DNA of 64,000 nucleotides from Epinephelus fuscoguttatus (Eukaryota > Chordata > Actinopteri > Perciformes > Serranidae): the NCBI RefSeq assembly GCF_011397635.1, contig NC_064758.1, positions 19,713,013 to 19,777,012 of the forward strand, in the 5' to 3' direction. Below are positions 18,424 through 31,500 of this stretch, one piece after another. A program made the position numbers and the translations under genes. The notes beneath the pieces are model-generated. The model did not search any database. It saw nothing but the letters and a program-made list of their open reading frames with translations, and was not told the DNA's origin. The first letter of the stretch is position 1, and each line of letters opens with the position of its first letter.

Positions 18424-19238
18424 ATGGATAAAGGGTGGTTCATTGGACATCAGAGGATTTCCCTTGCAAAGGAGGAGGCGTCCAGCTCATGCAGCAGTGT
18501 CTCAAGACCCCGTATGATTATTAACCTGACTCAAATGCTTCAAGCTGACAATCCGAATGCAGTCAAGAAGCCAATTCCAAGAGTCTCTGTGCCAAAGGAA
18601 CAATTGCAGTCTCTCTGTGAACCAATAAACCCATCGTCCGACAGTAGTCACACTCTCTGCCTTCCACCACACACAAGAAGAAGCAATGCAGAGTACAATT
18701 TGTCGACTCTTTGGGGCTCGACCTGGAAGATGTCAAGCTTTTTAAACCTGGAGAGGATCCGTTTATACCACATCATGTTGCCTTCATACTGCTGATGGAT
18801 GCAGAGTTGGCAGATGGAAAGCATCTGGAGATATCTTTGCCATACTTGAAGCCGGTTTTTAATCAACAACCTGGTGACCAGGAAGGATTCCTGCATCGGT
18901 TGTGTTTTCATGAATTTGGACTTTGAGAAAGATGTCACAGCCCGCTATTCGTTTACAGACTGGAAGAGCTGCTCAGAAACTAAAGCTTCTTGGGTGTCCA
19001 CCATCACCAAGACCTGGGAAGGAGGAGGGGGCCAGTTCAGTTGTGATACATTTCGTTTCCACCTGCCTGTTCCTCCATTCCTACAGCCAGGGGCAGTGTT
19101 GCAGTTTGCCATCCGATACACAGTCTGTGGGGCTGAATACTGGGACAACAATGATGGAGAGAATTATAAGTTAGTCTGCCATAACTACAAGCTCGCTGTG
19201 CCCAAAGAATGCGAGGACAGCATGTGCACTTCATCTAA
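18424..19238 (+). pseudogene. ppp1r3d: ppp1r3d, glycogen-targeting PP1 regulatory subunit, disrupted by three lesions
   Basis: The family tethers protein phosphatase 1 to glycogen, activating glycogen synthase. The first frame (ATG 18,424) runs to about 18,650-18,670. A second frame carries the PP1-docking motif RVQF (18,690-18,701) and LGLDLEDVKLF. A third frame from about 18,900 carries most of the CBM21 glycogen-binding domain (NLDFEKDVTARYSFTDWK, LPVPPFLQPG, EYWDNNDGENYKL). The three pieces lie in frames 1, 3 and 1. The second junction lacks about 18 residues expected between EGFLHRL and the VFMNLDFEK strand. Near the end, one missing base at about 19,224 replaces the family C-terminus SMVHFI-stop (ancestral TAA at 19,236-19,238) with a read-through to 19,311. 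Adjacency to sycp2 matches human PPP1R3D-SYCP2. A pseudogene is likeliest, with clustered assembly errors as the alternative. Confidence 0.75.
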
Positions 19239-19311
19239 GATGTTGACTAAAAAAAGGGTAGAAGAAACCAATTTAGAGCACTTTATGACCATTGACAGCA
19301 AGACCTATTAA

Positions 19312-22510: not shown

Positions 22511-25500
22511 ATGGCCCCGGGACAGGACACTCAGGTGGGAATGCACATCTTTACCCAAGTTTATCAGGATTCCATTGTTGCTGAAAAGCAAACTTATTAG
22601 CCATTTTTCATGTGCAGTTGGAGAAAGTCATTGATGAGGTGTTAAAGAGTGGGGCTGTCCAACCACTGGATGTTTTCTTGCAAAGCAACATACATGAAGG
22701 GACTGTCATCAAATGTTCCCAACAGTTTCTCACCAAATTGGATAAACTTGTCAGCAGGGTAAGATGTAGCCCAGCAGACTTATAATGCCACAATGCTCTA
22801 TTGTTTGTAATTCTAATGAAACCATAGCTATATTTTTTTTTACTTAGAATTTGGATAAAAAAGATGCAAAGTCAGCCAGTTTGGCTTTTGCCATCCTCTA
22901 CAAGTGTGGGAAAAACCTGAAACTACCTGGTGGTTCCCAAGGACTGTCAGGAATAATAGCTCAAGGCCTGCTCAAAAAGATGAGTATACATCTCAATAAA
23001 CAGGCACACAGTGTGTGAGTGCTGCATCAGTAAATGTACTTAGTCAGTTGTTGATTGAACCTGGTTTTGTGCACATGGTGCAGTGGTTTGAGAAATGCAG
23101 GCGACTGTGGATCGAGTGTGGCCCGCAGTGGGATGAGACCTTGTTCAACCTCTCTGAGGATTTCTTTGATGTCTTAATGGTGAGTTGATTTCTAATAATA
23201 AAATAATGCAGCACTCATGTTAATGTCTATATTATAAAGTGTTTTCTTTCCTCCCTGTTACAGGTGGTTCATGAAGCCTGCAAAGAGGGTTTGTTTTACA
23301 TTTCTATTATTTATTTGTTTTTCATCCTCAGTGTGTGCATTATATCTCCAGTGACCCCTTTTTAGGACCCAAATGAAGTTTATTCCACAGTATTACTTGG
23401 GTCTGAAACACTTAAGATTGACACCAGCAACATACAGCAACATTTCTTCAGTGTTAGGGTGTTATCTTTGTATTAATGGTGTAACAGAACAGTACATGTA
23501 GAGACTGACGAACAAGAAGTGAAGTTATGGAATAACTTAGTACAAAAGATTACGCTGAAACTCTGAAGTAATTACATTTCACTATCAAATCAGATACTTT
23601 TTACTGACTAAACTATTGTTGGAACAGATTTAGGTGGAACATAATGAGCATTTATCATACAAAACTAGCTTCTTAAAACAACATCAACTTTCATGATGAA
23701 TCTTATCAAAAAAGACTTTCACTATTGCAGCAACATATGTTTTTTTGCAGGAACTTACAAAATCACAGACTCCTTCCTGTACCCTGTTGGTCAGTTGGCA
23801 GTAGACCCCAGTATCTACATCCTGATCCAAAAAGAGGTTTGAAATGTTTTTAATAACCACTTTTAACTTCTACTTTGGAGCCGCATTAAAAACTGTGATT
23901 TGAGTGTTTGCTCATAAATTCACTTGCTAATAATGTTCTAACAGGCAATTCGCAAATTTAACTTACTTCTGGACAAAATCCCAGTGGAGCTCAAGAAAGA
24001 GAGGAAGATCCTATCATCACAGGAGGCCTCAGATATCATGTATGTCCTGGTAGTTTCCTCATAGTAAGGATTATTGTTACTCATTTTGTTCTGGATCCAC
24101 ACACTATAAACTTTTCTTGTTCATTACATTTATACAGGATCAAGCTAGCTGGTCTGATAATGAAGGGTGGTGGTAAGTATCTTTTATGAATAGTATCATC
24201 TCATTTCACCAAGAATCATACATACCATAGACACAGAAATGTACAACACACTTTGTTTGTGTCAGATTACGACTTGCAGACAGCCCTGGTGGAGGCATTG
24301 TGCAGAATGGCAGCTCCTGACCAGAGGAAGGAGCTGGCCTATCGGTGGTTCAGCATGGAGCATGTGGCCAGCGCCTTTGTCAAGATCAGTGATTCTGAGT
24401 TTGAGACGGTAAAAATGTCTGATTTGTACAAGTGCACCACCTTTGCCTCTCATTTACATGTACATGATTTGCACTACAGTGGTAATGTAGTGTAAAAACA
24501 TTACAAGAGGAGTTCAGCTACATGGAATTTAATATAAATGTGTGTGATTTCAGGACTGTCGCAAATTTCTGAACTTGGTGAATGGGATGCAGGGAGACAG
24601 GAGCAGGTACACAAATACCGTAACTCAGTGCCTCCCAAGACATGGTTTGGAGAACTCAAGGGGTCATTAGGGTTGCCACCCAAAAGAGGAATATTTTAGT
24701 GTAACTTTTACTGAAACTATTATTTCACACCTTTGACTCTATAGCACAATGAGAAAACGAATTATTTTTTCATTAAATTTTATAAATGTGATAGAGACAC
24801 ATAATTTAATAACAATGTTCTCTCTGTAATATAGAGTGTACTCCTATCCTTGTTTGGAGGCTTATCTGGACAAGCATGAGGTCAGTATCGACAGGGTTTC
24901 TGTGGTTTAAAGAATAGGAGAAAATGTCAAATGATACAAAATAATAAATGCAGCTGTTGTCTGTCTCGAGTCTGACAGCACATTAGAGGCAATAATTTCA
25001 AGATGCTTCTGCCTTTTTGGTACAATTAACTGTTCATTAAAGTGTTAGGATAGTTAATGTGAGCTAAAATGTCACAATTCATAATGTACTGCTATGTGTA
25101 TCAAGGATTATGTGTGCTCAAAGGATTTTGGTTTTGTTGTTAGCTGCTGATGCCTGCTGATGAGAACCTGGAAGAATTTTGGATCGACTTTAACCTTGAC
25201 AGCCGCAGCATCTCCTTTTACTTCTCTTTTTCTGATGATGAGGCACAGGTACCTCACAGTCATTCATGAAAGTGAAATTCAAGAAGTGCAATAACTTATG
25301 TAATAAACTGTAGATTTGTATTTGTTATAGCCTAATTTAGACTGATATTCTCGTCATGTAGGAGGCCCAGTGGGAAACAGTATGTTTCAATGACAATGAA
25401 GTCCAAAGCTACACTGTAACAGGTAATTAGAGTACAAAGAGTACTGTATTTGTGTCTAGCATCTGAATCTGCAGATGAAAAAAATAGCACTTGTCCATTA

Positions 25501-28500: not shown

Positions 28501-31500
28501 GCAAATCCTTTTCAACTTATATTCAATTGAATACACTGCAAAGACAAGTTACTTAATGTTCGAACAGGTAAACTTTGTAATTTTTTGCAAATATTAGCTC
28601 ATTTGGAATTTGATGCCTGCAACATGTTTCAAAAAAGCTGGCACAAGTGGCAAAAAAGACTGAGAAAGTTGAGGAATGCTCATCAAACACTTATTTGGAA
28701 CATCCCACAGGTGAACGGGCTAATTGGGAACAGGTGGGTGCCATGATTGGGTATAAAAGCAACTTCCCTGAAATGCTCAGTCATTCACAAACAAAGATGG
28801 GGCGAGGGTCACCACTTAGTGAACAAATGCGTGAGCTGAGTGTCGAACAGTTTAAGAACAACATTCCTCAACGAGCTATTGCAAGAAATTTAGGGATTTC
28901 ATCATCTACGGTCTGTAATATCATCAAAAGGTTCAGAGAATCTGGAGAAATCACTGCACGTAAGCGACAAGGCCGAAAACCAAAATTGAATGCCCGTGAC
29001 CTTCGATCCCTCAGGCGGTACTGCATCAAAAACCGACATCAGTGTGTAAAGGACATCACCACATAGAAAACCACTGTCAGTAACTACAGTTATCACATCT
29101 GCAAGTGTTAAAACTCTACAATGCAAAGCCATTTATCAACAGCACTCAGAAACGCTGGGCCCGAGCTCATCTAAGATGGACTGATGCAAAGTGGAAAAGT
29201 GTTCTGTGGTCTGAGTCCACATTTCAAATTGTTTTTGGAAACTGTGGACGTCGTGTCCTCCGGACCAAAGAGGAAAAGAACCATCCGGACTGTTATAGGC
29301 GCAAAGTTCAAAAGCCAGCATCTGTGATGGAATGGGGGTGTATTAGTGCCCAAGGCATGGGCAACTTACACATATGTGAAGGCACCATTAATGCTGAAAG
29401 GTACATACAGGTTTTGGAGCAACATATGTTGCCATCCAAGCAACGTCTTTTTCATGGACGCCCCTGCTTATTTCAGCAAGACAATGCCAAGCCACATTCT
29501 GCACGTGTTACAACAGCATGGCTCCATAGTAAAAGAGTGCGGGTACTAGACTGGCTTGCCTGTAGTCCAGACCTGTCTCCCATTGAAAATGTGTGGCGCA
29601 TTATGAAGCGTAAAATACGACAACGGAGACCCCGGACTGTTGAACAACTTAAGCTGTACATCAAGCAAGAATGGGAAAGAGTTCCACCTGAAAAGCTTCA
29701 AAAATTCTTCTCAGTTCCCAAACGTTTACTGAGTGTCGTTAAAAGGAAAGGCGATGTAACACAGTGGTAAAAAGGCCCCTGTGCCAACTTTTTTGCAATG
29801 TGTTGCTGCCTTTAAATTCTAAGTTAATGATTATTTGCAAAAAAAAAAATAAAGTTTCTCAGTTTGAACATTAAACATCTTGTCTTTGCAGTGTATTCAA
29901 TTGAATATAAGTTGAAAAGGATTTGCAAATCATTGTATTCTGTTTTTATCTACGATTTACATAACGTGCCAACTTCACTGGTTTTGGGTTTTGTATAAAG
30001 TTAAGCCATGTGTTTTCTACCTTTGCACATACAGGTATGAGGGTGTAATGCAAATTTTGAATCTGCTTCAAAGTCGTAGTTACACAACACGTATCATTCT
30101 GTTGCACCTGTCGTCTCTGCTTGTCGTACAGAATGTACCACTGGCAAAAGCAGCAGATGTGGTTCCAGCTGGACAGGGAGAGGAACAGTCTCTGGGTATT
30201 TTATCACTATAGTGACTCACTGTACACTTAAGCTCAAGCTGAAAGTACAGCTACATTGTAATTCTTAAGACTCTTGAACCCACCACTGATATTTTTACTT
30301 ACAGAGTCCAGTTTTGTGCCTGACACCCAACCCAAAACTGGGAGAAACATGTAAGCACTGTGAAGAATCTGCTGCCATTAGAGCAGCCAATGCTCTGATT
30401 GTTAATGCTGTGAGTTTGTGTTGATACAGTATGTGTGTATATCTTTGTTCAAACTGCAGATCTATGAACTGGAGCAAACTGTCAGTTTCTGAAATGCTAA
30501 TGATGCCCACACAGAAAATCAGTTCTCTGCCAAGACCTGGTGAGCAAAGAAGTCATCAAATATTGTTACTATCTTTCAGACATCACTAAATGTTTTGTAT
30601 ATTAAAGACTAGTAACACAGACAGAGCCTGGCTAGTGAAAAAAACTGTCATCAAACTTGTATTTTGTTTCTACATTAAATTACTTCTTCTCTTTAGAGTC
30701 TCAGTCAAGTTTGGCAGGACAACAGGAGAGCCTGTCCTCAGCACAGACATCGTCAGTTGCAGGCTCGAGCTCAATCAGCCAAAAGCAACTTCACATACAG
30801 CTCACCCAGCGCCTGCAGCAGGTCCTCAGAGAGAGGAACCAAGATCCGGCACATCAGGAGCCATCTGCACCCCACAGAAACATGTCTGACATCAGAGAGG
30901 ACTCTAAAGGCAGAAGCTCTATGGAGCAGTGTGCTGCAAAACTGTGTTCTCCCAAAAAGCAGCAGGCCCAGAGGAATGGCCTGACCAAAGGGAAGAGTAA
31001 ACGGCAGATGTCACTGGAGACAGATGCAGATGCAGTCAAAGCTCCAGCCAAGGCCTCCACAGCTAAAGCTCCGCAGAAGGGAACACCACAGAAAGGGAAG
31101 GCTGACACTAACAGGAACCTTTCAAGCAAAGAGAAGGTATGAAATCTGCGAGCTTAAGGCATGTTACTAATTTAAGGTTAGAAATGTTGTATATTGTGAT
31201 TCTCACACCTTCTATTGTTTCTGTGCAGAGAGATGCAGAGGTTGCAGGCAGCATGGTGAAGCTCATCTCTAGCCGCTATGACAGTAACACCAAATCCACA
31301 GCAAAAGATACTGCAGACACAATCCCTCAGAGCTGGATTCCTCCTCTTGTCAACAGGTATACACACAGATGACTGTAGGGCTACATTGTGTTGTACTGTA
31401 GTAAAGGAACTAATGTCATCGCTAACATACTGTAGCTGTGCAGCTTATTGACCGTGTTTTTGTTTTAGGCCAGTCTTCAATATGGGCTGGTTATCAACCT

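Follow-up and report, generated by a model that had tools for sequence, protein, structure and literature searches.

The window, that is, the whole 64,000-nucleotide stretch of Epinephelus fuscoguttatus DNA analyzed here, contains the gene sycp2 on its forward strand. Coding exons 1–10 form one open frame once joined. The features are listed below in window coordinates, with a slash marking a splice junction.

22511..22534, + strand: coding exon 1 (MAPGQDTQ), an in-frame ATG and then a GT donor; joined translation
22618..22758, + strand: coding exon 2 (LEKV...LVSR); joined translation, aligned with mouse SYCP2 (5iwz)
22848..22979, + strand: coding exon 3 (NLDK...LLKK), 3' end AAAAAG; joined translation, aligned with mouse SYCP2 (5iwz)
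22980..23074, + strand: coding intron 3, AT-AC, 95 nt, phase 0, predicted U2-type; sequence, junction scan and consensus scoring
22980..22985, + strand: 5' splice site of intron 3, ATGAGT (AAG/ATGAGT), 8/9 to MAG/GTRAGT; consensus scoring; two Nav genes in this genome have the same donor
23051..23055, + strand: TTGAT, a candidate branch site of U2 type with 23054 as its branch A and a distance of 20 nt to the end of intron 3; pattern match only
23069..23074, + strand: 3' splice site of intron 3, GTGCAC/ATG; sequence and junction scan
23075..23179, + strand: coding exon 4 (MVQWFEK...DVLM); mouse alignment, joined translation
23264..24606, + strand: coding exons 5–10, the introns separating exons 4 to 10 being GT-AG; joined translation

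The protein encoded by the first nine exons matches the Pfam domain SYCP2_ARLD (PF18581; 1.1e-46) and mouse SYCP2 (5iwz; 7.4e-62), in an alignment that spans the KMV.WFE junction without gaps there. Matches to SYCP2_SLD (PF18584) over the cut-off are located at C7:19738147 (read through one TAG) and C7:19738892, both within the window. Exons 8 and 9 measure 35 and 143 bp, compared with 34 and 143 bp for the exon 8/9 flanks in a zebrafish sycp2 minigene. A 251-base query spanning the intron 3 site finds one match in the assembly (1.05 Gb, 26 contigs).

An inverted partial copy of sycp2 lies outside the window, about 105 kb downstream on the minus strand of contig C7 (~19,838,100–19,844,000). 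Its stretch corresponding to exons 6–10 has 92% identity across 973 aligned bases and its other pieces 77–95%; its exon 10 is short of one codon, and exons 1–5 have no match in the fetched stretch of the copy. Pieces of a Tc1-like transposase (HTH and DDE_3 domains) occupy two separate open frames within the sycp2 gene region, at window positions 28614–29770. Upstream of sycp2, an open reading frame at 18850–19311 encodes a CBM21 domain that resembles PPP1R3 glycogen-targeting subunits. In human, PPP1R3D is a close neighbour of SYCP2, so that this upstream frame would fit orthology.

Boundaries and register of intron 3

Exon 3 ends with CTCAAAAAG at 22979 and is followed by ATGAGTATAC; after 95 nt, the coding sequence resumes with ATGGTGCAGTGG. 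The intron reads AAG/ATGAGTATAC...TTTTGTGCAC/ATG, with GTGCAC as its last bases, and the joining of 22979 to 23075 restores K/MVxWFE, which is common to fish sycp2 and mouse SYCP2. An earlier note on this DNA had placed an AT-AC intron at 22980..23074 in sycp2, and the sequence, the coordinates and the restored KMVxWFE junction are as it described.

A junction scan combined donors at 22950–23009 with acceptors at 23020–23119 for introns of at least 40 nt. The frame is open in 1855 of the 5565 resulting pairs, and four registers of a single junction, running from 22980/23075 to 22983/23078 (AT-AC, TG-CA, GA-AT and AG-TG), tie for the top similarity to mouse SYCP2. The four registers are equivalent, since ATG stands at either end, and all give the same mRNA. 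AT-AC is the sole recognised intron class among them, and DNA alone leaves a four-way ambiguity. The claim of the earlier note that only these boundaries would serve holds for the junction, since one junction scores best, but not for its register, on which four tie. Its statement that GT-AG choices give stop codons applies to nearly all of them; the pair 22984–23030 stays open, and is the one open GT-AG pair among the 5565, with a length of 47 nt and 16 additional residues inside the conserved junction.

A control grid of ±15 positions was placed around each of the nine introns between sycp2 coding exons 1–10. The final 18 residues of the mouse reference in this grid were supplied by hand and are located beyond intron 3. 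All eight other introns have an open GT-AG pair at most 5 score points below the best: GT-AG is tied for best in three, and a non-GT-AG pair scores 1–5 points higher in five. Homology therefore narrows the intron ends, but alone does not fix them. By contrast, GT-AG is absent among the 321 open pairs of intron 3 in this grid. As a rough estimate that assumes equal bases, the chance of AT...AC in one of four registers is about 1.6%, and with RAGT next it is about 1 in ten thousand. A chance occurrence is untenable because of the human SYCP2 data described below.

Splice signals and related AT-AC introns

The donor AAG/ATGAGT agrees with the U2 consensus MAG/GTRAGT at 8/9 positions, with the single mismatch at +1, and carries the G at +5 that marks a U2-like donor. 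The 5' end of the intron agrees with the U12 consensus ATATCCTTT at 3/9 positions, and ATATCC is absent. The best match to the U12 branch site scores 6/9 and is located 31 nt from the end, while the other eight introns score 5 to 7; the intron has neither an RTATCCTT 5' splice site nor an outstanding TTCCTTRAY branch site near its 3' end. The stretch before the 3' end has a modest share of pyrimidines (0.59; 0.47–0.88 in the other eight introns). These signals support a U2-type AT-AC intron as the best reading. The earlier note had proposed this class, and had described a donor like GTGAGT with its first G changed and without the U12 ATATCC; the donor scores, the ordinary branch-site score and the classification of intron 5 of human SYCP2 among the major AT-AC introns bear out both proposals.

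The human intron has been assigned to both classes in print. In the available parts of the 2021 CENATAC paper (PMC8280824), intron 5 of human SYCP2 is a major (U2-type) AT-AC intron in the RT-PCR panel. The legend and text state that 0/85 major AT-AC introns or related subtypes respond to CENATAC loss, and cite SYCP2 intron 5 with this insensitive set. The available parts of a 2024 paper (PMC11353295) place Leu30 (c.89) of human SYCP2 in exon 4, position the variant c.298-3dup beside a splice site, and label the intron before c.298 as U12-type, without a test there. Codon 100 begins at nucleotide c.298, and the Met following fish intron 3 is residue 100 (8 + 47 + 44 codons precede); fish codon 30 falls in the exon preceding the one that is ended by intron 3. 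Because the exon and codon numbering agree, the simplest assignment makes human intron 5 the one before c.298, in the same place as fish intron 3. Fish intron 3 is thus most simply the orthologue of human SYCP2 intron 5, on the numbering given in the available parts of both papers. The two introns share the gene, the AT-AC ends, the place before codon 100 and phase 0; the fish intron is 95 nt long, and the comparison is one of exon and codon numbering. On the type of this intron PMC8280824 and PMC11353295 disagree, as far as their available parts go, and the fish sequence supports U2. The variant c.298-3dup, reported in one infertile man with its effect unproven, sits at the 3' end of the human intron that is the subject of this conflict (PMC11353295, in part).

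Conservation was judged from the human papers, one mouse protein and one fish genome. SYCP2 is absent from the main texts of PMC4176328 and PMC12363858, as is TAF2 from the former, and no report of an AT-AC intron in fish sycp2 was found among the literature matches listed.

The same genome contains further introns of this kind. TAF2 intron 1 is the other major AT-AC intron named in the available parts of PMC8280824. In the fish (L026 505–724, on C8) it reads ATAAGTATCT...GCTTTAC, with AT-AC ends and the donor ATAAGT. A grid of 2601 pairs around it leaves 482 open, none of them GT-AG; AT-AC and one adjacent register share the top score. The intron resembles sycp2 intron 3 in its AT-AC ends (ATAAGT...TTTAC), but differs in phase (2) and length (220 nt). 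Among the Nav genes (L041–L056), the intron after QQK(K/R/A)K is AT-AC in all eight that were read, with A-T-R-A-G at +1 to +5. The donors that follow AAG are ATAAGT (four), ATAAGA (two) and ATGAGT (two), and the acceptors end in AC. A complement of eight Nav genes suits a teleost. The two ATGAGT cases, on C15 and C19, have a donor AAG/ATGAGT identical to that of sycp2 intron 3. Two further Nav-like genes on C4 (L057, L058) were left out of this count, and two Nav junctions further upstream look GT-AG in those genes for which both ends were printed. We take the junction after QQK(K/R/A)K to be the SCN4A intron 21 site, the U2-dependent AT-AC class. The A-T-R-A-G donor form is common to the Nav introns and sycp2 intron 3; the gene is a different one, and the register is unique by inspection in the eight Nav genes, whereas it is four-way ambiguous in sycp2. 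Because the Nav register is unique, an AT-AC intron with AAG/ATGAGT appears to be an established form in this genome.

Alternative readings and proposed mechanism

Very probably, the segment 22980–23074 corresponds by orthology to intron 5 of human SYCP2 and belongs to the rare AT-AC introns that the major (U2) spliceosome removes. Splicing from the same AT to the CAG whose last base is 23083, whether exclusively or in a minor isoform, would drop MVQ and is in frame and open, but it would remove residues of a stretch that aligns with mouse, M and V being identical, and an A at the start with a G at the end is disfavoured in U2 splicing; we regard it as exceedingly unlikely. Use of the canonical pair 22984–23030, with its 16 extra residues, draws on its being the only open GT-AG pair of the 5565. 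At 47 nt, the resulting intron would fall short of the minimum usual in vertebrates, and it would disrupt a junction aligned to mouse without gaps. With AT-AC at the same place in human as well (PMC8280824 and PMC11353295, available parts), the probability of such an intron is negligible. An assembly error or a non-functional gene copy might be suspected from the use of a single assembly and from the partial sycp2 copy about 105 kb away. Both ends would, however, have to err in such a way as to give AT-AC, as in human, exons 1–10 are open with SYCP2_SLD matches further on in the window, and exons 1–5 are unmatched in the partial copy, so that this explanation has next to no probability. Removal of a U12-type AT-AC intron by the minor spliceosome would agree with the frequency of AT-AC ends among U12 introns and with the label given in PMC11353295 (available parts), and is slightly less improbable than the foregoing, yet still very unlikely: the 5' end scores 3/9 against ATATCCTTT, ordinary introns of the same gene match the U12 branch site as well as this one does (6/9 at 31 nt), and the available parts of PMC8280824 class human intron 5 as major and cite it with the CENATAC-insensitive set. 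The U12 type, the short GT-AG intron, AT-AG splicing, an assembly error and a non-functional copy were all rejected on the evidence against each.

For a U2-type AT-AC intron, we infer that splicing occurs at these boundaries in this fish with the use of U1, U2 and U6, the candidate branch point, and a contact between A and C. U1, and later U6, would recognise AAG/AUGAGU as an ordinary donor save for the A at +1, via the exon end and positions +2 to +6. In step two, a pairing of the first intron base (A) with the last (C) would replace the usual G–G contact. The contact between the first and last nucleotides would be restored by the C at -1, and the A at +1 is most likely tolerated for this reason.

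The SYCP2-like paralog and the origin of the intron

A SYCP2-like gene is located on C21, with an SLD match over the cut-off, a protein match of 2.3e-5 and an ARLD match that on its own falls short of the cut-off (21 bits). It has an intron at the same codon boundary as sycp2 intron 3 (LTAK/VVLWFE). The paralogs share the intron position, but the C21 intron is GT-AG (GTAATC...TTTAG) and 529 nt long, as opposed to AT-AC and 95 nt in sycp2. Its donor scores 6/9 to both the U2 and the U12 consensus, and at least six registers tie at the junction, one of them GT-AG. A candidate on C1 was left out of the paralog comparison; its Pfam match is sub-threshold (25.8 bits, cut-off 27.8), and it aligns with mouse SYCP2 over a single notable stretch (E 0.002 in 8 kb), with no exon 3 or 4.

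The available parts of PMC2831892 give G at +5 as a feature of U2 AT-AC introns in sodium channel genes. They propose that U2 AT-AC introns arise from U12 AT-AC introns by a +5 C to G change, through 5' splice-site changes alone, and are then trapped, since switching needs a change at both ends. Matching changes at both ends, the compensating change of which the earlier note spoke, may be an alternative origin to this U12-derived route, and the GT-AG paralog on C21 fits both. We consider it likely that SYCP2 has retained its AT-AC intron from the shared ancestor of human and fish onwards, held in place because neither end can change alone, and that the SYCP2-like paralog either retained or reverted to GT-AG at that codon.

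The sycp2 AT-AC intron is real and of U2 type on its sequence; the comparison with human marks it as ancient, and the human intron was known before. Added here are its orthologue in fish, the paralog with GT-AG ends and the conflict over U2/U12 classification. Gene finders that allow GT-AG only may misread exons 3 and 4 of fish sycp2. The AT-AC/GT-AG paralog pair at one codon boundary offers a test case for the origin of U2 AT-AC introns: a U12 ancestor in outgroups would make it a worked case of the route from U12 AT-AC to U2 AT-AC, and GT-AG in outgroups would make it a case of matching changes at both intron ends.
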